From positions 1-64,000 of the forward strand of contig NZ_VWPY01000007.1 in assembly GCF_011839805.1 (NCBI RefSeq): 64,000 nucleotides of DNA, given 5' to 3'. Positions 234 to 26,049 of this stretch are shown here, piece by piece. The translations under genes and the position numbers were made by a program. Source of the stretch: Kineococcus rubinsiae (GTDB taxonomy: Bacteria > Actinomycetota > Actinomycetes > Actinomycetales > Kineococcaceae). Within the stretch, counting starts at the first letter, position 1, and the number at the start of each line of letters is the position of its first letter. Under the pieces are notes generated by a model, which saw nothing but the letters and a program-made list of their open reading frames with translations, did no database searches and was not told the DNA's origin.

Positions 234-898
234 GCCGGGAGGCCACACCGCGCGAGGCCCTCGCGCTGTACTACGACGACTCCGCCCCCTCCTACGTCGC
301 GGGGTGGCGCACGCTGGAGCACTACAGCCCCCTCGTCGCGGAGTTCCTCCTGCACGCCGTGGCGCCGGGCCGCCGGGTGCTCGACGTCGGGTGCGGGCCG
401 GGGCAGCTGACGGCGGAGCTCCCGCCCGGCGTCTCCGTCACGGGCTTCGACGTGTCGCCGGGGATGCTCGCCGCGGCGCGCGCGCGGCGGCCGGACGGCA
501 CCTACGAGCAGCACGACCTCCACGACCCGCTGCCCGCGGGGTGGGGCCGCTTCGACGTCGTCGTCGCGGTCGGCTGCCTGGAGTTCTGCCGCGACCTCCC
601 CGCGACCCTGCGCCACCTCGCGGCCGCGTGCGCGCCCGGGGCGCGGCTCCTGGTGGGCGTCGTCGAGGACCGCCGCGCGCCGGCGGGCCGCTCCCGGGAG
701 GCGTTCTCCGACGAGGGCCTGCCGGGGGTGCCGATGTACGCCTACGACGTCACCGCCCAGCTGGCCGCGGTGACGGCCGCGGGGCTCGCCCCGTCGTCCT
801 ACCGCGACGTCCCGGCCTGGCGGCACGACGAGTACTCCCGCACGGTGCGCTACGGCCTGTGGGAGCTGCGCGCCGGCGAGGGGACCCCGGGTGCGTGA
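230..898 (+). CDS. Class I SAM-dependent methyltransferase
   Basis: This 222-residue soluble protein has a Rossmann-type methyltransferase fold. The glycine-rich SAM motif VLDVGCGPGQ lies near residues 47-56, followed by the acidic strand end GFDVSPGML (motif II) and FDVVVAVGCLEF (motif IV region). The substrate cannot be predicted. The GTG start overlaps the upstream stop (GTGA) and its own stop overlaps the xdhC-like gene by 8 bases, so all three are probably translated from one transcript. Length is normal for stand-alone family members. The family is secure, the substrate is unknown. Confidence 0.85.
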   Translation: MSREATPREALALYYDDSAPSYVAGWRTLEHYSPLVAEFLLHAVAPGRRVLDVGCGPGQLTAELPPGVSVTGFDVSPGMLAAARARRPDGTYEQHDLHDPLPAGWGRFDVVVAVGCLEFCRDLPATLRHLAAACAPGARLLVGVVEDRRAPAGRSREAFSDEGLPGVPMYAYDVTAQLAAVTAAGLAPSSYRDVPAWRHDEYSRTVRYGLWELRAGEGTPGA

Positions 899-2063
899 CG
901 TGCTGCCCGCGGTCCTGCGCTGGGCCGGCGAGGGCCGCGGCTGCGCCGTGGCCACCGTGGTCCGGACGTGGAACAGCTCCCCGCGGCCCGCGGGGGCCTC
1001 GATGGCGGTCGCCGCCGACGGCGAGGTGGTCGGCAGCGTCTCCGGCGGGTGCGTCGAGGGGGCCGTGCACACCCTCGCGCTGGAGGTCGTCGCGTCGGGG
1101 CAGGCCGTCGCCGTCACCTACGGCGTCTCCGACGACGAGGCCTTCGCGGTGGGCCTGACGTGCGGTGGCGTGCTGGAGCTGGTGGTCGCTCCCGTGACGG
1201 CGGACGACGTGCCGCTGCTGCAGGCGCTGCAGGACGACCTGACCGGCGAGCGCGCCGCGGCCCTGGTCACGGTGGCGGGCGGGGCCGGGGCGCTCGGCGC
1301 GCGCCTCGTGGTCGGGGAGGACGCGACCGCGGGCTCCCTCGGCTCGGCGCGCCTGGACGCCGCGGCCGCGGACGCGGCCCGGGGCCTGCTGGCCGCGGGA
1401 CGCACGGACGTCGTCCACCTCGGACCGGACGGCGAGCGCCGGGGCGACGAGCTGGCGCTGTTCGTCGAGTCCTGCGCGCCGCCGCCGCGGATGCACGTCT
1501 TCGGCGCCATCGACTTCGCGGGGGCCGTCGTGCGGATGGGCAAGTTCCTCGGCTTCCGGGTCACGGTGTGCGACGCGCGGCCGGTCTTCGCGACGGCGGC
1601 GCGCTTCCCCGACGCCGACGAGGTCGTCGTGCAGTGGCCCCACCGCTGGCTCGCGACGGCCCCGGTCGACGACCGCACGGTCATCTGCGTGCTGACCCAC
1701 GACCCGAAGTTCGACGTGCCGCTGCTGGAGGTCGCGCTGCGCACGCCCGCCGCCTACGTGGGGGCGATGGGCAGCCGCCGCACGCACGAGGCGCGGCTGG
1801 CGGCGCTGCGCGAGGCGGGGCTCACCGAGGCCGAGCTGGCCCGGCTGTCCTCGCCGATCGGGCTGGACCTGGGCGGGCGCACGCCCGAGGAGACCGCGGT
1901 GTCGATCGCCGCGGAGGTGCTGGCCCTGCGCTGGGGCGGCAGCGGCCGCCGGCTCAGCGACGTCCCCGGCCCCGTGCACACCGCGCCCGCGCACGCCGGG
2001 CCCGCGCCCGCGGGTCCTCCGGGCGCGGCCGCTCCGGGCGGCGGGGAGCGGCCCGGCGGTTAG
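891..2063 (+). CDS. XdhC/CoxI family molybdoenzyme maturation protein
   Basis: XdhC proteins bind molybdenum cofactor, promote its sulfuration and hand it to xanthine-dehydrogenase or CO-dehydrogenase type enzymes in the cytoplasm. The N-terminal half carries the XdhC_CoxI signature (ATVVRTWNSSPRPAG and the SGGCVEGAV motif, residues about 22-60). The C-terminal half is the Rossmann XdhC_C domain (MHVFGAIDFAGAVVRMGKFL near 203, then the YVGAMGSRRTHEARL motif). About 40 Pro/Ala/Gly residues end the protein and look disordered. The gene overlaps the methyltransferase by 8 bases. The molybdoenzyme it serves is presumably encoded left of the window. Its TAG stop forms the first bases of the apparent -10 box of the next gene. 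Confidence 0.88.
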   Translation: MRDVLPAVLRWAGEGRGCAVATVVRTWNSSPRPAGASMAVAADGEVVGSVSGGCVEGAVHTLALEVVASGQAVAVTYGVSDDEAFAVGLTCGGVLELVVAPVTADDVPLLQALQDDLTGERAAALVTVAGGAGALGARLVVGEDATAGSLGSARLDAAAADAARGLLAAGRTDVVHLGPDGERRGDELALFVESCAPPPRMHVFGAIDFAGAVVRMGKFLGFRVTVCDARPVFATAARFPDADEVVVQWPHRWLATAPVDDRTVICVLTHDPKFDVPLLEVALRTPAAYVGAMGSRRTHEARLAALREAGLTEAELARLSSPIGLDLGGRTPEETAVSIAAEVLALRWGGSGRRLSDVPGPVHTAPAHAGPAPAGPPGAAAPGGGERPGG

Positions 2064-2066
2064 GCT
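2061..2066 (+). promoter_or_regulatory. -10 box of dprE1, leaderless arrangement
   Basis: TAGGCT lies six bases before the GTG at 2073 with no ribosome-binding sequence between, so transcription should begin at or next to the start codon. The same layout recurs at several other genes here. The box reuses the TAG stop of the xdhC-like gene. Confidence 0.5.
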
Positions 2067-2072
2067 CGCCGC

Positions 2073-3494
2073 GTGGTGAGCCTCCCTGGTCTGAAGAACG
2101 TCCTCGATCGCAGCAGCGCCGACGAGACGGTGCCCGCGCGCCGCACGGCGCGGCTGACGGGGTGGGGGCGCACGGCCCCGACGACGGCGACGGTCCTGCG
2201 CACGGCCGACCTCGACGTCCTCGCGGAGGCCGTGCGCACCGCCGGCCCGCGCGGCGTCATCGCCCGCGGCCTGGGCCGCAGCTACGGCGACCCGGCGCAG
2301 AACGCCGGCGGCCTGGTCATCGACATGACGGCGCTGAACCGCATCCACCGCATCGACGTCGACGAGGCCGTCGCCGTCGTGGACGCGGGGGTCTCGCTGG
2401 ACACCCTGCTGCGCACGGTCGTCCCGCACGGGCTGTGGGTCCCCGTCCTGCCCGGCACCCGCCAGGTCACCGTCGGCGGCGCGATCGGCGCCGACATCCA
2501 CGGCGGCAACCACCACACGCAGGGCACCTTCACCCGCCACGTCCTGTCGATGGACCTGCTGACCGCCGACGGCACGGTGCGCACGCTGACGCCGGACGGC
2601 CCCGAGCGCGAGCTGTTCCTGGCCACGACGGGCGGCATGGGCCTGACCGGGATCGTGCTGCGCGCGACCATCCGCCTCGACCGCGTCGAGACGTCCTACT
2701 TCCTCGCCGACGTCGAGCAGGCCCCGGGCTTCGACGAGCTCCTCGAGCGGCTGCAGCGCAACGACGAGAAGTACACTTACTCCAAGACGTGGTTCGACTC
2801 CGTGACCAAGGGCGAGCACATGGGGCGCGGGTTCCTGCTGCGCGGCTCCAGCGCGAAGCTCGAGGACCTGCCGAAGAACCTCCGCAAGGACCCGCTGAAG
2901 TTCGACGCCCCGCAGCTCGCGTCCTTCCCCGACCTGTTCCCGTCGGGGATGCTGAACCGGCTCTCGGCGAAGGCGCTGAACGAGTTCTACTACCGCAAGT
3001 CCCACACCGAATCCGGTGTGGTGCAGAACATCACGCAGTTCTACCACCTGCTCGACCTGTTTGCGGACTGGAACCGCGCCTACGGCCCCAACGGGTTCCT
3101 GCAGTACCAGTTCGTCGTGCCCTTCGGCCGCGAGGACGTCCTGCGCGCCAGCATGGAGGCGATCGTCGAGTCCGGGCACATCTCGGCGCTGAACGTCCTC
3201 AAGCGCTTCGGCCCGGGCAACGACGCGCCGCTGTCCTTCCCCACCGAGGGCTGGACGCTGGCCGTCGACCTGCCCGCGCGCGAGGGCCTGGACCGGCTCT
3301 GCGACACCCTCGACGAGATGGTCCTGGACGCCGGCGGCCGCCTGTACCTGGCCAAGGACTCCCGCACCACGGCCGAGCGCTTCGCCCGGATGTACCCGCA
3401 GCTGCCGGCGTGGCGGAAGGTGCGCGACGCAGTGGACCCGGAGCGGAAGTTCGCCTCCGACCAGTCGCGGCGGCTGGACCTCGTCGTCGGCTGA
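2073..3494 (+). CDS. dprE1: Decaprenylphosphoryl-beta-D-ribose 2'-oxidase (DprE1-like)
   Basis: DprE1 is an FAD enzyme that, with DprE2, epimerises decaprenylphosphoryl ribose to the arabinose donor used for cell-wall arabinan. The 473 residues match mycobacterial DprE1 along their whole length: ARLTGWGRTAP near residue 26, the FAD loop ARGLGRSYGD, GLWVPVLPGTRQVTVGGAIG, the DIHGGNHH segment, FDAPQL, LYLAKDSRTTAE and a C-terminal FASDQSRRL. The cysteine that benzothiazinones trap in mycobacteria (C387, context NICVDFP) is Ala397 here (TLAVDLP). No dprE2 or arabinosyltransferase gene lies nearby, so the enzyme's partner is elsewhere. GTG 2073 is preferred because a -10 box sits six bases upstream. 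Family assignment is strong; the exact lipid substrate is inferred. Confidence 0.9.
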   Translation: MVSLPGLKNVLDRSSADETVPARRTARLTGWGRTAPTTATVLRTADLDVLAEAVRTAGPRGVIARGLGRSYGDPAQNAGGLVIDMTALNRIHRIDVDEAVAVVDAGVSLDTLLRTVVPHGLWVPVLPGTRQVTVGGAIGADIHGGNHHTQGTFTRHVLSMDLLTADGTVRTLTPDGPERELFLATTGGMGLTGIVLRATIRLDRVETSYFLADVEQAPGFDELLERLQRNDEKYTYSKTWFDSVTKGEHMGRGFLLRGSSAKLEDLPKNLRKDPLKFDAPQLASFPDLFPSGMLNRLSAKALNEFYYRKSHTESGVVQNITQFYHLLDLFADWNRAYGPNGFLQYQFVVPFGREDVLRASMEAIVESGHISALNVLKRFGPGNDAPLSFPTEGWTLAVDLPAREGLDRLCDTLDEMVLDAGGRLYLAKDSRTTAERFARMYPQLPAWRKVRDAVDPERKFASDQSRRLDLVVG

Positions 3495-3515
3495 GGCGCG
3501 TCGTCGGCTGAGGCG
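3482..3515. repeat. 17-bp tandem duplication across the dprE1 stop
   Basis: CGTCGTCGGCTGAGGCG occurs twice in direct tandem (3482-3498 and 3499-3515). It covers the last codons and the TGA of dprE1, so the second copy repeats the stop-codon context outside the gene. Confidence 0.8.
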
Positions 3516-3601
3516 CACGTCACACCCGGCGCGCCTCGAGGAGCGGCGCCGGGTGGCCGATGGTCCCCTGGAGAGGACGACCGTCGACCGGGGAGGTGCG
3601 C

Positions 3602-5185
3602 GTGCTGGCTGCTGTCGCCCCGGCGCTCCCAGTCGCCGGCCCCTACGACCGCGCGGCCGCCCGCCGCGAGGTCGACGACCTGCTGCTGCGCGTGGGCCTG
3701 GACCCCGAGCCCTGCCTCGTGCGGGCGCGGGCGCTGCTCGCCGTGGCCCAGGAGGCCGACGACGACGACGTCGTGGTGCACGCCCTCGTGCTGGAGGCCG
3801 ACGCCCTGCACCGCCTGGGCGGTGTCGCGGACGCCGCCCGCATCGTCACCGCGGTGCGCGAGACCCGCCCCGACCTCTCGGCGGAGCACCGCGTCCGCAC
3901 GGGCTGGGTCCTCATGCGGGTCTGCTCGAACATCGGGGACAGCGCGACCGCGCTGGAACACGCCGTCGAGACCGCCCGGTGGCTGGGCGACGACATCCCG
4001 CCGCGGCTGCGGATCCAGTTCACCATCAAGTACGGCGACGTCCTGGACGCCGTGGGCGACGTCGAGGGCGCCCGCGAGCGCTACGAGCAGGCCGAGCAGC
4101 TCGCCGTCGGCGACCCGGAGCTGCACCTGCGCGCGGTGAATAACCGCGCCTACACGGAGCTGTCCCTGGGCGACACCGAGCGGGCCGTCGCGGGGGCCGA
4201 GCACCTGGTGGAGCTGGCGGAGCGCTACGGCCACCCCCTGAACTCCGACGAGCTGGACACGCTCGCGCACATCCACCTCATGCAGCACCGCCCCGAGCTG
4301 GCCGTCGCGGCCGCGCAGGAGGCCCTGGGCCTGCTGACGGTCAAGGGGAACAAGGGCCGCGACGACCTGCCGGAGATCCTCCTCACCCTGGGCATCGCCC
4401 ACCGCCACCTCGGCGACCTCGACACGGCCGCCGGCCACCTCGGCCGGGCCCGCGAGATCGTCGCCTCGCACGGGTTCTCCGAGCTGACGGCCCGGGTCTT
4501 CGAGGAGGAGGCCGAGCTGCTGGCCGCGCGCGGCGACTTCCGCGGGGCGCTGGAGGCCCACAAGGCGTTCCACCTGGCCGACAAGGAGCTCGTCTCGCTG
4601 CAGCGCGAGGCGCAGTCCCGTGCGCGGCAGGCGATGTACGAGTCCACGCAGGCCCGCGCCGACGCCGCCCGCTTCCGCGAGGAGGCCCGCCGCGACCCGC
4701 TGACCGGCCTGCACAACCGGCTGGCGGTGGGGGAGCGGCTGCCCGCGCTGCTGGACGCCCGCACGCGCGGCGGGATGCTCGTCGTCGCCGCCCTGTTCGA
4801 CCTCGACCACTTCAAGGCCGTCAACGACGTCTACTCCCACGAGGCCGGCGACCACGTCCTCGTGACGTTCGCGGAACTGCTCGCCGCCTCCGTCGCGGAC
4901 CTGCCGGAGGGTTCCGGCCTGGCCGCCCGGCTGGGCGGTGAGGAGTTCCTGCTGGTGCTGGCGGCGACGACCGCCGCCGAGGCCATGCAGCGCATCGGCG
5001 CCGTGCGCCGGGCCGTCGAGGAGCACGACTGGTCCTCGACGACCCCGGGCCGCAGCGTCACCGTCAGCGCGGGCGTCGCGGTCGCCGACGACGACAGCAC
5101 GCACTTCAGCCTGCTGCGCCGCGCCGACGTCGAGCTGTACGCGGCCAAGGCCGCCGGGCGCAACCGGGTCTGCGGCGGCGTCTGA
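3602..5185 (+). CDS. TPR-type sensor with GGDEF diguanylate cyclase domain
   Basis: The protein (527 residues from GTG 3602) should make cyclic di-GMP from GTP. Residues 1-340 are alpha-helical repeats of tetratricopeptide type (for example AVNNRAYTELSLGD, LLTLGIAHRHLGDLDTAAGHL), followed by a helical linker and a GGDEF domain opening with DPLTGLHNR. The active-site loop is GGEEF at 445-449, expected to be active, with DLDHFKAVND as the metal-binding strand. The inhibitory I-site (RxxD before the signature) is absent: the equivalent stretch is EGSG. There are no membrane segments, so it is cytoplasmic and may respond to a protein or peptide bound by the repeats. The start is chosen because GGGAGG lies five bases upstream; an in-frame ATG at 3560 would add 14 residues but lacks such a site. 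Confidence 0.87.
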   Translation: MLAAVAPALPVAGPYDRAAARREVDDLLLRVGLDPEPCLVRARALLAVAQEADDDDVVVHALVLEADALHRLGGVADAARIVTAVRETRPDLSAEHRVRTGWVLMRVCSNIGDSATALEHAVETARWLGDDIPPRLRIQFTIKYGDVLDAVGDVEGARERYEQAEQLAVGDPELHLRAVNNRAYTELSLGDTERAVAGAEHLVELAERYGHPLNSDELDTLAHIHLMQHRPELAVAAAQEALGLLTVKGNKGRDDLPEILLTLGIAHRHLGDLDTAAGHLGRAREIVASHGFSELTARVFEEEAELLAARGDFRGALEAHKAFHLADKELVSLQREAQSRARQAMYESTQARADAARFREEARRDPLTGLHNRLAVGERLPALLDARTRGGMLVVAALFDLDHFKAVNDVYSHEAGDHVLVTFAELLAASVADLPEGSGLAARLGGEEFLLVLAATTAAEAMQRIGAVRRAVEEHDWSSTTPGRSVTVSAGVAVADDDSTHFSLLRRADVELYAAKAAGRNRVCGGV

Positions 5186-5215
5186 GCCGACTCGCCGGCG
5201 GGGCGGTCGGGCTTT

Positions 5216-5247
5216 GGTCTCAGACGGTCGCGGTCTCAGACGGTCGT
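5216..5247. repeat. 16-bp tandem duplication at the epimerase stop
   Basis: GGTCTCAGACGGTCG(C/T) occurs twice in tandem. The second copy contains the stop codon of the minus-strand epimerase gene and the first repeats it just downstream, much like the duplication at the dprE1 stop. Confidence 0.75.
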
Positions 5248-6133
5248 GAAGTACGACGTCGCGAGGTCCTCGAGCAGGCCGGCGTGCGTGGGCCGCCCGC
5301 CGAGGAGCTCCTGCGTGCGGACGGAGGACGCGGACAGGTCCGCCGCGAAGAACAGCCCGATCCACCCGAAGTGGGCCGCGGCCTCCTCAGGGGCGACCGA
5401 CGCGGTCGGCACGCCGAGGTGCTGCCCAATCGCCTCGGCGATCTCCCGGGTGCCCACGCCCTCCTCGGCCACGCCGTGCAGCGTGCTCCCGGCGGGCGCC
5501 GCCTCCACGGCCAGGCGGAAGAGCCGGGCCGCGTCGAGCCGGTGCACGGCGGGCCAGCGGTGGGTGCCGTCGCCGACGTAGGCGGAGACGCCGGTCCTGC
5601 GGGCGACCTCGACGAGGGTGGGCACGAAGCCCCGGTCCCCGCGGTCGTGGACGGTCGGGGCGAGCCGGACGACGGAGGAGCGCACGCCGTGACCGGCCAG
5701 CGCCCGGGCGGCGCGCGCGCTCGTGGCGCGGCCGCCGGCGGGCCCGTCCTCGGCCGGCTGGTCCAGCTCGGTGCCGGGGCGGCCCGTGGCCAGGCCGAGG
5801 GTGCCACCCACGATCACGAGCGGCCGGTCGCTGCCGCGCAGCGCGTCGCCGAACGCCTCGACGGCGGCCAGGTCCGTGCGCGCGGCGCCTGCCATGTCGG
5901 AGAAGTCGTGGCGGAAGGCCAGGTGGACGACGCCGTCGCTGGCGGCGGCGCCGGCACGCAGAGCGTCGAGGTCGTCAAGGTCGCCCGCGAGCACCTCGGC
6001 ACCCGCGGCGGTCAGAGCGGCGGCCGAGGCCTCGGAGCGGGCGAGCCCGACCACCTGGTGGCCCGCCGGCGAGGAGTTCGGGGACGACGGCGGAGCCGAC
6101 GAAGCCGGAGGCTCCGGTGACGAGGACGCGCAT
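5236..6133 (-). pseudogene. NAD-dependent epimerase/SDR, frameshifted near its start
   Basis: The natural start is the ATG at 6133 on the minus strand, after a GGGAG site. It begins with the classical extended-SDR nucleotide-binding motif, MRVLVTGASGFVGSAVV. After about 23 residues this frame goes wrong near 6067-6072, where one extra G (reading CTCGCCGGCGGGCCACC) moves the rest (GHQVVGLARSEAS onward) into another frame. That second frame is intact to the stop: a DLDDLDAL region, DGVVHLAFRHDF, a sugar-epimerase-like middle and a C-terminus ending FTTV. Deleting one base would restore a protein of about 298 residues. The gene is therefore either truly broken or carries a sequencing error. It lies divergent from a TetR regulator with shared operators, typical of a repressor-controlled SDR. 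Confidence 0.8.
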
Positions 6134-6167
6134 GAGCTGGACTCCCGTGGTCGGTGGGCAGGTCTGA

Positions 6168-6213
6168 TGTCACCTGGTGACATGACGGTACACGGTCATG
6201 TCACCGGGTGCCA
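6168..6213. promoter_or_regulatory. Double palindromic operator between epimerase and tetR
   Basis: Two copies of a 15-bp palindrome lie 31 bp apart centre to centre, about three helical turns: TGTCACC-T-GGTGACA at 6168-6182 (perfect) and TGTCACC-G-GGTGCCA at 6199-6213 (one mismatch). The inner halves also form an 11-bp perfect inverted repeat, GGTGACATGAC with GTCATGTCACC. The sites sit between divergent starts and just upstream of the tetR -10 box, as expected for an autoregulated TetR-family repressor. Confidence 0.75.
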
Positions 6214-6217
6214 TCGC

Positions 6218-6223
6218 TAAGGT
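6218..6223 (+). promoter_or_regulatory. -10 box of tetR gene, leaderless arrangement
   Basis: TAAGGT stands six bases before the GTG at 6230 and no ribosome site lies between. It abuts the second operator palindrome, so a bound repressor would block it. Confidence 0.5.
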
Positions 6224-6229
6224 GGGCCC

Positions 6230-6796
6230 GTGGGTCGATGGCAGCCGGACGCCCGGAACCGGTTCCGGCAGGCGGCCGTGGAGCTCTTCGACGAGCAGGG
6301 CTTCGAGGACACGACCGTCGTGCAGATCGCCGAGCGCGCTGGCCTCACCAAGCGCACGTTCTTCCGGCACTACGCCGACAAGCGCGAGGTGCTGTTCGAG
6401 GGCTCCGCGCGGCTGCAGGAGCTCATGGTCACCGCGCTCGTCGGCGCCCCGGACGGGGCCACGCCCCTGGAGGCCGTGGTCGCGGCCGTGCACGCCTCCG
6501 CCGCGTACTTCCTCCAGGACCGCGACGCGGTCCGGCGGCGGCACGCGGTCGTGACCTCGACGCCGGAGCTGCAGGAGCGGGAACGGGTCAAGCTCGCCAC
6601 CCTCACCGCGGCGCTCGCCGACGCCCTCCGCGGCCGCGGTGTCCCGGAACCCACCGCGACCCTCGCGGCGGAGTCGGGCGTCACCGTGTTCCGGCTCGCG
6701 TTCGACGCGTGGGCCACCCGGGCCGATCCGCCGCCCCTCACCGTCCTCGCGGACGAGCTGTTCACCGCGCTGCGGGGCGTCGCCGCCCCTGGCTGA
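6230..6796 (+). CDS. TetR/AcrR family transcriptional regulator
   Basis: The 188-residue protein has an N-terminal TetR helix-turn-helix (AAVELFDEQGFEDTTV, then IAERAGLTKRTFFRHYADKREVLF at about residues 33-56) and a C-terminal ligand and dimer domain of the usual size. It is transcribed divergently from the frameshifted epimerase gene, with a pair of palindromes between them, so it most likely represses both that gene and itself. The inducer is unknown. GTG 6230 is chosen because the protein begins immediately at the conserved first helix (RWQPDARNRFRQAA) and a -10 box lies six bases upstream. Confidence 0.9.
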   Translation: MGRWQPDARNRFRQAAVELFDEQGFEDTTVVQIAERAGLTKRTFFRHYADKREVLFEGSARLQELMVTALVGAPDGATPLEAVVAAVHASAAYFLQDRDAVRRRHAVVTSTPELQERERVKLATLTAALADALRGRGVPEPTATLAAESGVTVFRLAFDAWATRADPPPLTVLADELFTALRGVAAPG

Positions 6797-6837
6797 CAAG
6801 TGACGGCGACGCCCTTGTTCGGCGGGGGCGGGAACGG

Positions 6838-6843
6838 TAGGAT
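6838..6843 (+). promoter_or_regulatory. -10 box of the DUF222/HNH gene
   Basis: TAGGAT ends seven bases before GTG 6851, and TTGTTC at 6815-6820 is a plausible -35 with a 17-base spacer. There is no ribosome site, so the transcript is probably leaderless. Confidence 0.5.
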
Positions 6844-6850
6844 CGAACAC

Positions 6851-8191
6851 GTGTCCACTACTCCCGCAGCGTCTCCGGTGAAGGAGCTGCGAAACGCGGT
6901 CGAGGCGGTGGACCTCTCCGTCCAGTGCGGTTCGTCGGACGCCGAACTCGTCGACGTGATCGCGGCGGCGGAACTCGCGAAGCGGGCACTGGCCGCGGTG
7001 CAGGCCCGTGCGACCGCGGTGTTGTCTCGTTCGGTGCGTACCGCTGAGGCGGCGGCCGGAGTTCCCGCGGCGAAGCGGGGGAAGTCGGTGGGCCCGCAGG
7101 TCGCGGCCGCTCGACGGGTGTCGCCGCACCAGGGTGGGCGTCTCGTCGGTGCCGCTCTCGCCCTCGTCGATGACCTGCCGGAAACCCTGGCGGCGCTCCG
7201 GTCGGGGGTGGTCGAGGAGTGGACCGCGACCAAGGTCGTGCAGGCCACCGTGTGCCTGGCACGGGAGGACCGAGCTCGTGTCGACGCGGCCCTGGCCGGG
7301 GAGTTCTCCCGGCCCGGAATCGGTGCCGCCTCGGTCATCGGGTCCGCGCGGGCCCTGGCCCAGCAGGTCGACCCGGCCTCCGCGGTCGCGCGGGCGAGGA
7401 AGGCGGCGAACGAGCGCTGCGTCTCGATCCGCCCCGCGCCGGACACGATGACGTACGTGACCGCACTGCTGCCTGTCGCCGACGGGGTCGCGGTCCACGC
7501 GGCTCTGCTGACGGCCGTCTCGAAGCACGCCGCCTCCCGGGAGCCCGGCGACGAGCGAGGTCGGGGTCAGGTCATGGCCGACACCCTCGTCCAGCGGATC
7601 ACCGGCCGGAACCCGCACACCGACCCCGTGCCCGTCGTCGTCCACCTCGTGATGCCGACGGACACCCTCCTCGACGCCGGTGACGTCTCGGCCAGCGTCC
7701 CGGGTCACGGACCGGTGCCGGCCGCCATCGCCCGCGAACTCCTCGCCTGCGCCGCCGAAGCCGGCCAGGCGTGGGTGCGGCGGTTGTTCACCAGCCCGGA
7801 CAGCTCGCAGCTGGTCGCGTTGGAGTCCAGACAACGGGCGTTCCCCGCCGGCCTGGCCGCGTTCCTGCGCGCCCGCGACCAGCGCTGCGCGACCCCGTTC
7901 TGCGACGCCCCGATCCGCCACCTCGACCACGTCCAACCCCACGCCCGCGGCGGCCCGACCACCGCGGACAACGGACAAGGGCTCTGCGAGGCGTGCAATC
8001 ACACCAAGGAACTCCCCGGATTCCGCTCTGTCCGGGATCCCGTCAGCGGCGTCACCACCCTGACCACCCCCACCGGCCACACGTACGCGAGCTCACCCCC
8101 ACCGGTGCTCGGTCACTCTGTCCTGCCGCCCGAGCGGTACCGGTCGGGCATCGAGGCGGACCTGCGCCGACGCCTAGACCTCGCCGCCTGA
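6851..8191 (+). CDS. DUF222 domain HNH endonuclease (13E12-family type)
   Basis: This 446-residue protein belongs to the large actinobacterial family with an N-terminal DUF222 region and a C-terminal HNH nuclease. DUF222 is recognisable in the helical stretch LVDVIAAAELAKRALAAVQAR. The nuclease motif lies near residues 340-385: RDQRCATPFCDAP, then HLDHVQPHARGGPTTADNG with the catalytic His pair, then CEACNHTKE with zinc-type cysteines. Such genes are multicopy in many actinobacteria and their biological role is not established; they are not by themselves evidence of a phage. GTG 6851 is preferred over an upstream in-frame ATG at 6800 because it has the -10 box at leaderless spacing. The gene appears intact. 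Confidence 0.85.
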   Translation: MSTTPAASPVKELRNAVEAVDLSVQCGSSDAELVDVIAAAELAKRALAAVQARATAVLSRSVRTAEAAAGVPAAKRGKSVGPQVAAARRVSPHQGGRLVGAALALVDDLPETLAALRSGVVEEWTATKVVQATVCLAREDRARVDAALAGEFSRPGIGAASVIGSARALAQQVDPASAVARARKAANERCVSIRPAPDTMTYVTALLPVADGVAVHAALLTAVSKHAASREPGDERGRGQVMADTLVQRITGRNPHTDPVPVVVHLVMPTDTLLDAGDVSASVPGHGPVPAAIARELLACAAEAGQAWVRRLFTSPDSSQLVALESRQRAFPAGLAAFLRARDQRCATPFCDAPIRHLDHVQPHARGGPTTADNGQGLCEACNHTKELPGFRSVRDPVSGVTTLTTPTGHTYASSPPPVLGHSVLPPERYRSGIEADLRRRLDLAA

Positions 8192-21183: not shown

Positions 21184-22281
21184 TCAGCTCCCGGCCGAGA
21201 ACGCCGAGGCGTCGACCCGCACGACCTGACCGGCACCGGACTGCCCGAGGAACGCGCCCGCGACGCTCCAGGCCGTGGAGTACAGCGCCCCGTCGGCCCA
21301 GCGCAGGCCCAGGGGCATGGTGACCTGGGCGACCGAGCGCGCGCCATCGGGCGCGACGCGGACGATCCGGCCGACGGTGGAGAGGTCGAAGCCGGCAGGG
21401 GGAGGCCCCTCCCCGGGAGGTGCTCCCTCCAGCAGTTCCGAGACGTAGACGGAACCGTCGTCGCCGACGGCCACCCCGGTCGGGCCCGACAGGCCGGTGA
21501 GCGTGCGCCGCAGCTCGCCGGTGCGGGCGTCGAGGACGTAGACGCGTCCCTCGCCCGGGACCTGGCTCGTCAGCGCGGAGACGTACAGGGAACCGTCCGG
21601 CCCGAACGCGAGCCCGGTCGGCACCGCGTCGCACCCCGTGTGCTCCGGGTCGTTGTTGGGCGCGCCCGCGCAGCCCCCGCTGGTCACGACGGGCGGGACG
21701 AAGAACGTGCTCACCGTCCCGTGCCGGTCGACGGCGAGCACGGCGTTGGCGCCCGCGTCGGCGACGTAGGCGAACCGCTCGTGCCCGCCCCGGCCGCCGA
21801 GGACGGCGAAGGGGTTGCTGAGGGCGTCCAGCGGCTGGCCGTCGTCGCCGAACTGCCGCTGGCCGTCGGGGTTCTCGGCGAGCTCGTACGCGGCCAGGTC
21901 GGCCAGCGGCCGCGGCGCGCTGCTCGGTGAGGAGACGTAGAGGGTGGAGGCGCCGGCAGTTCCGGGTTCCCCCTCGCCGGTGACCGTGAGCAGGTCGTGC
22001 GCGGTGCGGTCGACGCCGGCGGGACCGGCGAAGCCGCTCGCCCGCACGACGGGTCCGCTGCCGCCGCGGACGAAACCGCTGACCTCCCCGGTGGTGTTCT
22101 CGGCCGCGTAGAACTTCCCCGCGCGGAACGAGAGGCCGTACGGGTCGTCGAGCCCCTGCGCCACGACGGTCAGGGGTGGGGGAGCGGGTGTCGGTGGCGC
22201 CGCCGTCGCCGGGGCCGCGAGCGCGGCGCCCGCGACGGCGGCGAGCGTGATGACCAGTGCTGAACGACGACGGTGCGACAT
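21184..22281 (-). CDS. ScyD/ScyE-like secreted beta-propeller protein
   Basis: The 365-residue secreted protein starts at ATG 22281 behind GGAGG. Its Sec signal is [24 protein letters not shown], cleaved near residue 28-30. The mature part is a beta-propeller of NHL/SMP-30 type: [98 protein letters not shown]. This pattern is annotated as the ScyD/ScyE family, whose cyanobacterial members belong to scytonemin synthesis; in actinobacteria no function is known and no scytonemin genes lie here. A possible -10 (TAGCGT on the minus strand, 22329-22334) lies upstream. Confidence 0.8.
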
Positions 22282-22450
22282 GACGCCTCCGGTCCGCGGG
22301 GCCTCCGTCGGCCGCCGCTGCGGGCGGGACGCTACTCCGACCGGGTGACGCCCCACCAGGAGTTCTGCTGAGTGCCGACTGTGGGTCACCTGTGCTGGAC
22401 GCTCGGTGTCCGGTGGACGTGCCCGCGCGGTCGGAGCGGGTCCGCCCGCG

Positions 22451-23125
22451 TCAGCCGCGCAGCAGCGGCGGGTGCAGGGAGGTGGCGGGACCGCGGCGGA
22501 ACAGCTGCGCGGGGCGGCCGCCGTCGCGCGCGGTGGTGGCGCCGACGGGTTCGAGGAACCCCGCCGCGCCCGTCACCTTGCGGTGGAAGTTCCGCGCGTC
22601 CAGGGCCCGGCCCCAGACGGCCTCGTAGACGCGCCGCAGCTGCGCGACCGTGAACTCCGGGGGGCAGAACGCCGTGGCCAGCGGCGTGTACTCCAGCTTC
22701 GCGCGGGCGCGCTCGACCGCCTCGGCGAGCAGCCGGGCGTGGTCGAAGGCCAGGGGTCCCGCTTCGGCCAGCGGAACCCAGCGGGCGTCGGCGGCGTCGG
22801 TGCCGGCGACGGGGAGCGGGAGGTCGGGGGCCAGCGCCAGGTAGGCGACGGTCACGACCCGCTGGCGGGGATCGCGGCCCGGTGCGCCGTAGGTGGCGAC
22901 CTGCTCCAGGTGGACCGTGCCCGCGGGCAGGCCCGTCTCCTCGGCCAGCTCGCGGTCGGCGGCCTCGGGCAGGTCCTCGTCGGCGCGGACGAAACCGCCG
23001 GGCAGGGCCCAGCGGCCCGCGAAGGGCTCCTCGCCGCGCTCGACGAGGAGCACGGCGAGCCCGCCGTCGCGGACGGTCAGGACGACGAGGTCGACGGTCA
23101 CGGCGAAGGCGGGGAAGCCGGGCAC
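22451..23125 (-). CDS. NrtR-type Nudix transcriptional regulator
   Basis: The 224-residue protein fuses an N-terminal Nudix domain to a C-terminal winged helix, the NrtR layout. NrtR proteins bind ADP-ribose or related NAD metabolites and repress NAD-related genes. The Nudix box (residues 44-66, GX5EX7REXXEEXGL) is complete, including REXXEE at 58-63, so hydrolase activity cannot be excluded. The DNA-binding part (EYTPLATAFCPPEFTVAQLRRVYEAVWG, then DARNFHRKV) fills the last 80 residues. It is divergent from the SPFH and NAD-kinase-like genes across a short region with a symmetric site, so these are its probable targets. The GTG start has TAGGCT six bases upstream on the minus strand. Confidence 0.87.
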   Translation of the reverse strand: MPGFPAFAVTVDLVVLTVRDGGLAVLLVERGEEPFAGRWALPGGFVRADEDLPEAADRELAEETGLPAGTVHLEQVATYGAPGRDPRQRVVTVAYLALAPDLPLPVAGTDAADARWVPLAEAGPLAFDHARLLAEAVERARAKLEYTPLATAFCPPEFTVAQLRRVYEAVWGRALDARNFHRKVTGAAGFLEPVGATTARDGGRPAQLFRRGPATSLHPPLLRG

Positions 23126-23131
23126 GCCGTC

Positions 23132-23198
23132 AGCCTAGCTCCTTCTCGTCGTCTTGACGACAAGCGCGGGAGCCACTTATCGTCAACCCGACGACAAC
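23132..23198. promoter_or_regulatory. Divergent promoters and candidate NrtR operator
   Basis: Going left, AGCCTA (23132-23137) is the nrtR -10 box read on minus (TAGGCT). Going right, TTGACG (23154-23159) and TATCGT (23178-23183), 18 bases apart, form the SPFH promoter. The symmetric GTCGTC-TT-GACGAC (23148-23161) covers the -35 regions of both, and a second, looser site (TCGTCaacccGACGA, 23180-23194) covers the rightward start point. GACGACAA is repeated in both. One regulator could therefore silence both directions. Confidence 0.6.
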
Positions 23199-23215
23199 AA
23201 CCCCAGGAGGACCCG

Positions 23216-24226
23216 ATGGCCGACATCACGCGCTACCCCTTCACCCGCCACCTGCGCAGCACCCCGACGGCGCACGTCATCCACCACCGCGCCGGCCGCC
23301 TCGCCCACTCCGGCACCGGGCAGGCCTTCTGGTTCCGGCCCCTGGTCGCGGTGCTCTCGGAGGTCCCCGTCGACGACCGCGAGCTGCCGCTCGTCGTCCA
23401 CGCCCGGACGGCCGACTTCCAGGACGTCACCGTCCAGGCCACCGTGACCTTCCGCATCGCCGACCCCGAGCTGGCCGCGACCCGCGTCGACTTCTCCCTC
23501 GACCCCGGCACGGGCCGCTGGCGCGCGGCGCCGCTGCAGCAGGTCGCCGGGCTGCTGACCGAGACGGCGCAGCAGCACGTGCTGGACGTCCTCGCGGGGA
23601 TGCCGCTGCGCGAGGTCCTGCTCACGGGCGTCGCCCTCACCCGCGAGCGCATCACCGCGGGCCTCACCGACGACCCCCGCCTGGCGGGGACCGGGATCGC
23701 CCTCGTCGACGCCCGGGTCGTCGCCGTCCGCCCCGAACCCGAGGTCGAGCGGGCGCTGGGCACCCCGACCCGCGAGCAGCTGCAGACCGAGGCCGACCAC
23801 GCCAGCTCCCAGCGGCGCGCGCTGGCCGTCGAGCGCGAGCGGGCCATCAGCGAGAACGAGCTGCAGAACCAGATCGAGCTCGCCCGCCGCGAGGAGCAGC
23901 TCGTCGCCCAGCGCGGCGCCAACCAGCGCCGCACGGCCGAGGAGGCCGCCGCCGCCGACACCGTCCGCGCCGCGGCCGAGGCCGAGCGCGAGGAGCGCCT
24001 GGCCCAGGCGCACGCCACCGCCGCCCGCCTGGTGGGCGAGGCGGAGGCCGGGGCGGAGGCCGCCCGGCTGGCCGCCGTCGCCGGCACGTCGCCCGAGGTG
24101 CTGCTGGCGCTGGCGGTCCGGCAGCTGGCGGGTCAGCTGCCCGACATCGGCACCCTCGTGCTCAGCCCCGACGTGCTGACCACCGCGCTGGCCCGCTTCG
24201 GCGCCGCCCCCGGGACCGCCGCGTGA
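23216..24226 (+). CDS. SPFH/band-7 domain protein
   Basis: The 336-residue protein has an SPFH core (residues about 15-180): a strand-rich region VHARTADFQDVTVQATVTFRIADPE, then GRWRAAPLQQVAGLLTETAQQHVLDVLAGMPLREVLL. It ends with a long charged coiled-coil, Glu/Arg/Ala-rich, about residues 190-285. Unlike flotillins and stomatins it has no N-terminal membrane helix, so it is probably a cytosolic or peripheral scaffold that oligomerises. AGGAGG five bases before the ATG is a strong ribosome site. Its stop overlaps the GTG of the NAD-kinase-like gene by four bases, so the two are coupled. It is divergent from the NrtR-type regulator. Biochemical role unknown. Confidence 0.85.
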   Translation: MADITRYPFTRHLRSTPTAHVIHHRAGRLAHSGTGQAFWFRPLVAVLSEVPVDDRELPLVVHARTADFQDVTVQATVTFRIADPELAATRVDFSLDPGTGRWRAAPLQQVAGLLTETAQQHVLDVLAGMPLREVLLTGVALTRERITAGLTDDPRLAGTGIALVDARVVAVRPEPEVERALGTPTREQLQTEADHASSQRRALAVERERAISENELQNQIELARREEQLVAQRGANQRRTAEEAAAADTVRAAAEAEREERLAQAHATAARLVGEAEAGAEAARLAAVAGTSPEVLLALAVRQLAGQLPDIGTLVLSPDVLTTALARFGAAPGTAA

Positions 24227-25119
24227 GCCTCGCCCCGCGCGTCGTCCTCGTGCACCGGCGCACCCCGTACGCCGACGCGCTCGCCCGCCACGGCACCCGC
24301 GGCCAGGCCGAGTTCTTCCTGCGCAGCCGCGGCCGCGAGCTCGGCGACCTCGAGGCCGCCGACGAGCGGCAGCGCGACGTCCTCGCCCGGGTGGCCGCGG
24401 CCGTCCCGCTGGACTGGCGCTCCGGGCGGGTGGAGCGCGCCGACCTGCCGCGCTTCCTCTTCGCCCCCGAGGACGTCGTCGTGGTCGCCGGGCAGGACGG
24501 CCTCGTCGCCAACGTCACCAAGCACCTGCAGGGCCAGGTCGTCGTCGGGATCGACGCCGACCCCGGCCGCAACCCCGGCGTCCTCGTCCCGCACCCCGTC
24601 GACCGGATCGCGGACCTGCTGCGCCGCAGCGTCTCCCGCCCGGCCTGCGAGGAGCGGACCATGGTGCGCGCGGTCACCGACGACGGGCAGGAGCTGCACG
24701 CCCTCAACGAGGTCTACGTCGGGCACCGCAGCCACCAGACGAGCCGCTACCTGCTGACGACCCCCGGCGGGCGCAGCGAGGAGCAGGCCTCCAGCGGCGT
24801 CGTCGTCGGCACCGGCACGGGGGCCAGCGGCTGGCTGGCCTCGCTGGCCCGCCAGCGCGGCGGCGACGTCGCCCTGCCGGGCGCGACCGAGGACCGCCTG
24901 GCGTGGTTCGTCCGCGAGGCGTGGCCCTCGCCCACCACGGGCGCGGACCTGACCGCGGGGCTCCTCGACGGCGACGACGGCGCCGACCTGGTGCTCGACG
25001 TCCTCAGCGACGAGCTCGTCGTCTTCGGCGACGGCCTGGAGGAGGACCGCCTGCTGCTGACCCGCGGGCAGCGCCTGCGCGTGGGCCGGAGCCCCCGCCG
25101 GCTGCGGCTGCTGCGCTGA
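24223..25119 (+). CDS. Atypical NAD-kinase-like protein
   Basis: The 298-residue protein follows the NAD/diacylglycerol-kinase-like fold but with altered motifs. The phosphate-binding GGDG of NAD kinases is replaced by AGQDG at 89-93 (DVVVVAGQDGLVANV). The NE pair that contacts NAD ribose is present at N162-E163 (ALNEVYVGHRS). The TPTGSTAY-type loop appears as GTGTGASGW at 196-204. The remainder is a two-domain beta-rich protein ending in a strongly basic tail. It may phosphorylate NAD or a related nucleotide, or only bind it. Translational coupling with the SPFH gene and the divergent NrtR-type regulator both point to NAD metabolism. No membrane segment is seen. Confidence 0.75.
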   Translation: MSLAPRVVLVHRRTPYADALARHGTRGQAEFFLRSRGRELGDLEAADERQRDVLARVAAAVPLDWRSGRVERADLPRFLFAPEDVVVVAGQDGLVANVTKHLQGQVVVGIDADPGRNPGVLVPHPVDRIADLLRRSVSRPACEERTMVRAVTDDGQELHALNEVYVGHRSHQTSRYLLTTPGGRSEEQASSGVVVGTGTGASGWLASLARQRGGDVALPGATEDRLAWFVREAWPSPTTGADLTAGLLDGDDGADLVLDVLSDELVVFGDGLEEDRLLLTRGQRLRVGRSPRRLRLLR

Positions 25120-25129
25120 GCGGCCGCCG

Positions 25130-25885
25130 TCAGCCGCCGAGCCGGCTGACGGTGAAGGCGACCAGGAAGCCCAGCGTCGTGATGAGCCCCGTGAACAGCT
25201 GCGTCCGCTCGAACGCCTCGGGGATCATCGTGTCCGCGACCATCGTGAGGATCGCGCCCGCGGCGAGCGCGGTGATGCCGGCGACGAGCTCGGGCGGAGC
25301 GCCGCCGAGGGCGGCGTTGCCGACGGCGGCCGCCACGGCGCTGATCAGCGCGATGCCCGTCCACACGCCGAACACGTAGCGGGCGCTGCGCCCGGCCCGC
25401 TTCATCCCGGCCACGCTCGAGAGGCCCTCGGGCACGTTCGAGATCACCACGGCGGCGACCACGGCGGCGCTGACCCCACCGCCGCCGAGCAGGCCCACCC
25501 CCAGGACGACCGACTCGGGGACGCCGTCCAGCAGGGCTCCGACAGCGATCGCCGCCCCGCTGCCGCCCTGCTGCCCCTCGGAGGGCTGCTGGGCCCCCGA
25601 GCGCTTGCGGTGGCGGGCGCCGCGGCGGGCCAGCACGGCGTTCGCGGCGACGTACAGCAGAGCGCCGGCGAGGAAGCTCAGCGTCGTCGCGACCAGCCCG
25701 CCCTCGTCGGCGGCCTCCTCGGCCAGGTCGAAGGCCAGGGCGGAGATCAGGACGCCGGCGCCGAAGGCCATGACGGCGGCCACGACCCTCGACGGCACCG
25801 TCGCGAACCACGCCACGGCGGCGCCCACCACGAGCGCGGCCCCGCCCAGCAGGCCCCACCCCCCGGCTTCGAGCCACTGCGGCAC
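25130..25885 (-). CDS. ZIP family divalent metal transporter
   Basis: The 251-residue integral membrane protein has about seven to eight hydrophobic helices. Paired transport-site motifs lie in two helices, LLDGVPESVVLG and VISNVPEGLSS, matching the conserved HNxPEG/xxxPES elements of ZIP transporters, and MIPEAF lies near the end. A cytoplasmic loop rich in basic residues, Gly and Gln (RHRKRSGAQQPSEGQQGG) separates helices 3 and 4, where ZIP proteins carry metal-binding loops; histidine is scarce here. GTG 25885 is chosen because GGAGGAGG lies upstream. Zinc or iron is the likely substrate. It runs convergent with the NAD-kinase-like gene, 10 bases apart. Confidence 0.8.
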   Translation of the reverse strand: MPQWLEAGGWGLLGGAALVVGAAVAWFATVPSRVVAAVMAFGAGVLISALAFDLAEEAADEGGLVATTLSFLAGALLYVAANAVLARRGARHRKRSGAQQPSEGQQGGSGAAIAVGALLDGVPESVVLGVGLLGGGGVSAAVVAAVVISNVPEGLSSVAGMKRAGRSARYVFGVWTGIALISAVAAAVGNAALGGAPPELVAGITALAAGAILTMVADTMIPEAFERTQLFTGLITTLGFLVAFTVSRLGG

Positions 25886-26049
25886 GCGTGCCTCCTCCGT
25901 CGCGGGCCGCCCGGCGCGGGTCCCGGCGGGGGGGTACCCGCTCACGCGCCTGCGGAAACGGCCGGGCGCCACCGGGGTGTGCCCACCGTCACGCGGGGAG
26001 CCGGCGGTCGGCGTCGGCGAGGACGCGGGCTGCTTGCGACACTGGGCAC

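Follow-up and report, generated by a model that had tools for sequence, protein, structure and literature searches.

The NrtR-linked SPFH-kinase gene pair of Kineococcus rubinsiae: a conserved unit with a candidate nucleotide kinase of altered signature motif

The stretch of DNA analysed here (the window) comprises 64,000 bp at the start of contig NZ_VWPY01000007.1 in the 4.88-Mb genome of Kineococcus rubinsiae (assembly GCF_011839805.1) and contains a gene for an NrtR-type Nudix regulator, divergent from two overlapping genes encoding an SPFH/band-7 protein and a protein resembling nicotinamide adenine dinucleotide (NAD) kinases, in which the motif GQDG stands in place of GGDG. Comparison of related loci indicates that the three genes clearly form one conserved unit, and for this unit we propose, with moderate confidence, a kinase that is repressed by NrtR, scaffolded by SPFH and directed at NAD or an NAD-derived adenine nucleotide. 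The regulator gene (22451–23125, minus strand) starts with GTG at 23125 and encodes 224 amino acids. On the plus strand the SPFH gene (23216–24226, 336 amino acids) starts with ATG behind a likely ribosome-binding site, AGGAGGA (23205–23211), as read from the sequence, and is followed by the kinase-like gene (24223–25119, 298 amino acids, GTG start), the product of which is 70% identical to its counterpart in Kineococcus xinjiangensis. The SPFH stop and the kinase start share the bases GTGA (24223–24226), just as an earlier note on this DNA had described, and the overlap suggests translational coupling.

The occurrence of the genes was followed in a class sample of 197 genomes and a phylum sample of 396 genomes. 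The earlier note had made the idea of one unit depend on co-occurrence in other genomes, and such co-occurrence was found: the kinase and the SPFH subfamily are present in the same 32 of the 197 class genomes and adjacent in all 32, with 54–63% identity for the full-length matches. The phylum sample contains 13 kinases and 14 SPFH genes, 13 of them in shared genomes, and the unpaired SPFH gene (G390) is cut by a contig end and adjoins an NrtR-like gene. Apart from this truncated case, every SPFH or kinase gene in the two samples had its partner. In a divergent member, G433, the genes for NrtR, SPFH and a kinase with only a partial match all point the same way.

A search of the genome collection gave at least 499 related stretches, and the best 80 were compared more closely, a selection in which outliers may be missed. 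The SPFH gene is present in 79 of these 80 loci, and its stop overlaps the kinase start by four bases in 52 and by one base in 14 (66 of 79 in all). A divergent NrtR gene is found in 49 of the 80 loci; the 31 without an adjacent NrtR belong to Streptomycetaceae (28) and Actinomadura (two) or lie on a contig of a metagenome-assembled genome (L109) with a broken reading of both SPFH and kinase and no operator, and at L084 and L107 the contig end is too close to reveal an adjacent NrtR. The Streptomycetaceae loci retain operators upstream of SPFH. In one genus (g28), which appears to be Streptomyces-like, all nine genomes without an adjacent NrtR have an ortholog elsewhere (72–75% identity), and in 9/9 cases the module operator is found shortly before its start, so that the exception supports regulation. 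A dedicated NrtR-type regulator is predicted to control the module wherever the loci can be read. In 27 loci the distance matrices of the three proteins correlate at 0.63 to 0.77, a figure not used as evidence because it has no control for shared ancestry. A larger conserved island was also considered and rejected: when the open reading frames (ORFs) of the window and 11 loci were compared with those of the 80 loci and the window, nothing beyond the three genes and the ORFs that overlap them was shared by at least 30 loci, and the most widespread others, ORFs of one Streptomyces locus, reached 17.

Analysis of the intergenic region between the divergent genes revealed two palindromes 34 bp apart, TTCTCGTCGTCTTGACGACAA (operator 1, 23143–23163) and TTATCGTCAACCCGACGACAA (operator 2, 23177–23197). 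The putative promoter of the SPFH-kinase pair has its -35 hexamer, TTGACG (23154–23159, plus strand), inside operator 1 and, after an 18 bp spacer, a -10-like hexamer, TATCGT (23178–23183, plus strand), inside operator 2, which also contains TTGACG in the NrtR direction (23186–23181, minus strand). The earlier note had seen a single symmetric site over both -35 regions; the two -35 hexamers are indeed covered, by two palindromes jointly rather than by one. When the 21-bp operator pattern was searched with up to three mismatches, the matches in the window were confined to the two operators (4 strand matches, 0.54 expected), a number reached in none of 100 shuffles. Operator 2 is the single match to the tight core TATCGTC-N5-GACGA in the whole genome. 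The looser core TCGTC-N5-GACGA is found at 37 places (3 for a control pattern), so the loose core alone is uninformative.

Among the loci, 79 upstream regions were examined (the window and 78 loci; L084, without SPFH and with its kinase near the contig start, and L114, without the SPFH N-terminus, were left out), a site being defined by at most one mismatch in ten fixed positions. At least two sites were found in 62 regions, one in 14 and none in three (L060, L070, L109), compared with 1.1 regions with any site and 0.015 with two expected from first-order Markov shuffles, which are not exact dinucleotide shuffles; the two-site count is lowered because the regions of L047, L061 and L062 had been cut short at the NrtR match. 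The distance between the last two sites is 33 or 34 bp in 53 of the 62 regions, and a promoter of the type TTGACn – 17 or 18 bp – TATCGT is present in 63 of the 79. In 12 whole genomes the tight core gave 29 strand matches (0 to 7 in each), of which 21 are situated at an SPFH or NrtR promoter and eight elsewhere (five in G018, one each in G056, G057 and G059), and a reversed control gave two, both in G057. Palindromic operators thus appear, at the sequence level, to be present both at the promoter of NrtR itself and at that of its target. No further NrtR targets are claimed. Five genes near the G018 cores were searched against Pfam and had no match above cut-off, one showing a weak DUF6204 match.

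The module is not confined to actinobacteria, and the matches indicate its presence in three bacterial phyla. In a plasmid collection all three genes are found, by annotation, in Rhizobium etli (CFN 42) and a relative, Providencia, Methylomonas and Moraxella, and they were identified by tblastn or our own ORF reading in Cupriavidus and Proteus. Treponema has the SPFH-kinase pair with an NrtR-like gene about 4 kb away, and Roseomonas has the pair with no recognisable NrtR in the stretch read. The overlap between SPFH and kinase is 14 bases in Rhizobium, four in Methylomonas, Cupriavidus and Roseomonas (the last two by our own ORF calls) and one in Providencia and Moraxella; in Treponema there is a gap of 10 bases. 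The Rhizobium kinase is 49–55% identical to those of Treponema, Providencia, Methylomonas, Moraxella and Cupriavidus and 36–39% identical to those of actinobacteria and Roseomonas. Cores of the form GTC-N5-GAC are situated 33 bp apart before the Providencia and Moraxella modules, and the same search found none before the Methylomonas module and gave no clear result for Rhizobium; operators upstream of the gammaproteobacterial modules are suggestive only. Taken together, the co-occurrence, the overlaps, the tandem operators and the modules in other phyla strongly support the proposal of the earlier note that shared control and coupled translation make these genes one system.

Some observations from the same collections concern the surroundings of the module. 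In Moraxella osloensis (L173:5948–7862) it adjoins tetR(H)-tet(H), and in Proteus mirabilis (L181:6656–7849) tet(J) is nearby. Plasmids from Pasteurellaceae, Psychrobacter, Aeromonas and others, several of which are small, also carry partial matches to the kinase. In Methylomonas a convergent NUDIX gene (L172:6133–7197, 354 amino acids), just below the Pfam cut-off, follows the kinase.

Two contigs of a viral collection gave matches. On the first, a 257-kb contig (L176), genes encoding an NrtR-like protein, an isochorismatase-domain protein, SPFH, a GQDG kinase and an NAPRTase-like protein are found close together at 637–7536; the NrtR-like protein matches NUDIX above cut-off (2.9e-5) and NrtR_WHD below it (9e-4), the kinase is 35% identical, and the NAPRTase-like gene reaches 20.3 bits (cut-off 20.8). 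This may possibly be a virus-borne NAD salvage set. On the second (L175:2–2831) the 3' part of a kinase gene is followed by NADAR (4.7e-51) and ADP-ribosylglycohydrolase (7.6e-81) genes.

The window kinase has no Pfam match up to an E-value of 1, NAD_kinase and NAD_kinase_C included, and reaches 5e-4 (19.7 bits, cut-off 260) with the NCBIfam NAD kinase model; among 44 relatives, matches reaching E 1 were 34 to NAD_kinase (best 6.1e-4) and five to NAD_kinase_C (best 0.013). Its fold was predicted with AlphaFold2 (predicted local distance difference test, pLDDT, 91.3; predicted template modelling score, pTM, 0.87), and the best structural match of the model is human NADK2 (7r4l; Z 25.4, 280 aligned residues, root mean square deviation, rmsd, 3.0), the next after the NADK2 entries being Pseudomonas NADK (Z 22.7). 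A profile search likewise found NADK2, with an E-value of 1.3e-15. The altered motif (24490–24501, plus strand) and the intact NE pair (residues 162–163) were both recognised in the earlier note, and its term "NAD-kinase-like" is supported by the predicted fold together with the retained residues. Across the 80 loci the motif reads GQDG in 77 and GPDG in three, never GGDG. A pattern search for the NE motif in the same loci gave 65 NE and one ND, with no match in 14, and in an alignment of 44 kinases the N is invariant and the E is kept in at least 90%; the structure alignment leaves out L109, which has a stop in the kinase.

To place these residues, 13 kinases from across the phyla were mapped onto Mycobacterium tuberculosis Ppnk, in which D85, N159, E160, T200 and Y202 are vital according to PMC8553519. 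The equivalents of Asp85 and Asn159 are present in 13/13 and that of Glu160 is E or D in 13/13; the Thr200 equivalent is Thr in 12 and Ser in the window kinase, and Tyr202 is replaced by Trp in all 13, as it is in NADK2. In place of the second Gly of GGDG, 12 have Gln and one has Pro. Since the catalytic residues are kept and the phosphate-loop motif shows a constant change, the protein is here named an NADK-superfamily kinase and not an NAD kinase.

The SPFH protein matches Band_7 in Pfam (58.4 bits, cut-off 23.6, E 1.2e-15), and its AlphaFold2 model (mean pLDDT 85.2, pTM 0.51) shows an N-terminal beta region followed by the SPFH domain and a helix of 114 residues (175–288). The nearest folds are erlin, HflK/C, prohibitin, stomatin, flotillin and the major vault protein (Z 11 to 14, which is weak evidence where long helices contribute, the rmsd along the helix being large), and the firm match of the core is to stomatin (112 residues at 2.6 Å, Z 12.5). 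A membrane anchor is a feature of classical members of the SPFH/band 7 family. The highest 19-residue Kyte-Doolittle mean is 1.43 in the window protein and at most 1.52 in 34 aligned sequences of the actinobacterial set; two of seven distant relatives are higher (1.61 in Rhizobium, 1.77 in Cupriavidus), at about residue 147 and inside the SPFH domain. By hydropathy alone there is no evident membrane segment, in agreement with the anchorless SPFH protein of the earlier note.

The window regulator matches NUDIX (1.3e-24, 87.1 bits) and NrtR_WHD (1.2e-15, 57.8 bits) in Pfam, both above cut-off, and profile matches in the PDB are AraR (5bs6) and a MutT/nudix family protein (3gz5). With 142 bits against a cut-off of 400 for the NCBIfam equivalog of ADP-ribose (ADPR)-responsive repressors, it is assigned to the NrtR family outside that equivalog. 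The domains and the intact box bear out the NrtR-type regulator with a complete Nudix box that had been noted. Among the actinobacterial set, 29 aligned proteins cover the box and 28 have it complete, as does the Treponema protein. The NrtR of Mycolicibacterium smegmatis (MsNrtR) differs in this respect, its Nudix box being termed less conserved and no hydrolase activity having been detected, and ADP-ribose releases it from DNA, as stated in PMC6800001. By analogy, the window NrtR may respond to ADP-ribose or a related compound.

Further regulators of this type were encountered. A second one in the genome of the window (G000:C31:46750–46926, L034) is 39% identical to the first. The g28 genomes hold 11 further NrtR paralogs (60–65% identity), six of which (L127–L130, L132, L134) have an upstream TATAGTC-type palindrome. 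At L162:3290–5016 an NrtR paralog with a different palindrome overlaps an ADP-ribosylglycohydrolase-like gene by one base, as read by eye.

In the mechanism we propose, the NrtR-family repressor would bind the two palindromes over the -35 and -10 boxes of the SPFH-kinase promoter and, as suggested by its family, leave the DNA once ADP-ribose or a related NAD breakdown product accumulates. The SPFH protein may, like its relatives, build a ring or cage, and the constant pairing suggests that the GQDG kinase would work on or in this assembly; a scaffold-bound nucleotide kinase would be the most economical interpretation. The kinase would phosphorylate the 2'-OH of the adenosine ribose of NAD(H) or of an NAD-derived adenine nucleotide, e.g. 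ADP-ribose, a target suggested by its residues and a few neighbours. The module would be switched on during NAD breakdown so that the pool of NAD(P) and ADP-ribose is protected, stored or recycled, in a role apart from the two GGDG-bearing NAD kinases of the genome.

Several findings weigh against this proposal. In addition to the altered GGDG, the Thr after the motif is Leu in 13/13, so NAD kinase activity cannot be assumed, and the equivalent of Ppnk Asp189 is Ser in 13/13, as it is in NADK2. The Nudix box is degenerate in 4/4 proteobacterial NrtR homologs checked, where the domain is therefore probably a sensor only. The module is patchy and dispensable, 165 of the 197 class genomes lacking it, and it is absent from 15 other listed genomes of the same order and from at least one genome (G089) of genus g28. 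No fourth neighbour is widely shared among the actinobacterial loci in the ORF comparison, and the two viral-collection contigs supply the only neighbours that point to NAD and ADP-ribose metabolism without recourse to the NrtR annotation.

A tentative alternative is a conditional NAD(H) kinase, perhaps one that uses polyphosphate as NADK2 does, which would raise NADP(H) when ADP-ribose signals NAD turnover and which the SPFH protein would only localise. It agrees with the predicted NADK fold, most of the catalytic residues and the best match to NADK2, and in PMC8553519 the human mitochondrial enzyme is described as an ATP/poly(P)-NAD kinase. The replaced second Gly in 80/80 loci and the two GGDG NAD kinases already encoded argue against it, and a plain NAD kinase would presumably need no constant partner. 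The kinase might instead act on free ADP-ribose or on phospho-ribosyl products, the phosphorylated ADP-ribose being a sink or a signal and NrtR sensing the substrate. This is rather unlikely; the response of MsNrtR to ADP-ribose, the two genes after the kinase end on L175 and the replacement of Asp189, which contacts nicotinamide in Ppnk (PMC8553519), speak for it, but NADK2 is also without this Asp and L175 is one contig, the end of which cuts its kinase. That the kinase is a pseudokinase or a nucleotide sensor gating SPFH assembly is decidedly unlikely: the fixed change from GGDGT to GQDGL or GPDGL could be read in this way, but the invariant catalytic Asp and Asn and the kept E/D in 13 sequences from three phyla suggest selection for catalysis. 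An anti-phage or NAD-depletion response module is improbable, for although Nudix-transcription factor ADP-ribose systems have been predicted to act against ADP-ribosylation by viruses (PMC9503650) and a contig of the viral collection carries one version of the module, PADLOC gave no match for the kinase or SPFH (neighbourhoods were not searched for defence genes) and for the regulator a match to the Nudix region only (PDC-S07, 24.3 bits, 4.5e-6), actinobacterial and Rhizobium kinase queries gave no matches in 50,697 phage records, and the sequence is well conserved.

Compared with known systems, the scaffolded kinase module proposed here shares with MsNrtR-type regulons a Nudix and winged-helix regulator divergent from its target, with an operator at its own promoter too. 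The target differs, being nadABC in those regulons and the SPFH-kinase pair here, and so does the operator, TTATCGTCA-N3-TGACGANAA as against GTTTTCGA-N7-TCGAAAAC for MsNrtR (PMC6800001). With human NADK2 the kinase shares the fold, SSG, the TGTG-x-x-W region, N-E and the Asp of GGDG, but it has GQDGL instead of GGDGT, is paired with SPFH and shows about 20% identity. The SPFH domain and the long helix are common to the assemblies of HflK/C, erlin, prohibitin, stomatin, flotillin and the major vault protein, from which the window protein differs in having no evident membrane segment and a constant kinase partner. The ARG-centred, Nudix/WYL-regulated ADP-ribose systems of PMC9503650 have a similar Nudix-HTH sensor repressor and ADP-ribose theme, whereas the module here is without ARG, phosphatase or chaperone; the terms SPFH, stomatin, band-7, NAD kinase and NADK are absent from the main text of that paper. 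No account of NrtR with SPFH or of SPFH with an NAD kinase was found in the literature searched, which did not include the main 2008 study of NrtR regulons. New are the gene combination, the GQDG kinase family and the apparently soluble SPFH partner, each parent superfamily being known.

If the proposal is right, it would add a kinase family that is so far uncharacterised and has a changed signature motif, assign a definite enzyme partner to an SPFH protein that seems to be soluble, and extend NrtR regulons beyond NAD synthesis and pentose use, and the candidate substrates form a short list: NAD, NADH, ADP-ribose or other. A bolder version, in which a membrane-free SPFH cage holds a new NADK-superfamily kinase that produces phosphorylated ADP-ribose or a new dinucleotide and an ADP-ribose-sensing repressor acts as the switch, is unlikely; if true, the cage, which recalls the vault in its SPFH and cap-helix part, would be a protein compartment for NAD breakdown products in three phyla and on a large contig of the viral collection.

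Two neighbouring genes in the window were also identified. A gene encoding a ScyD/ScyE-family protein (21184–22389; 188 bits, cut-off 80) adjoins the NrtR gene and is absent from the widely shared neighbours in the ORF comparison across loci. On the other side, the protein encoded at 25130–25972, convergent with the kinase gene, shows a weak match to ZupT-type zinc transporters (34 bits, cut-off 252).

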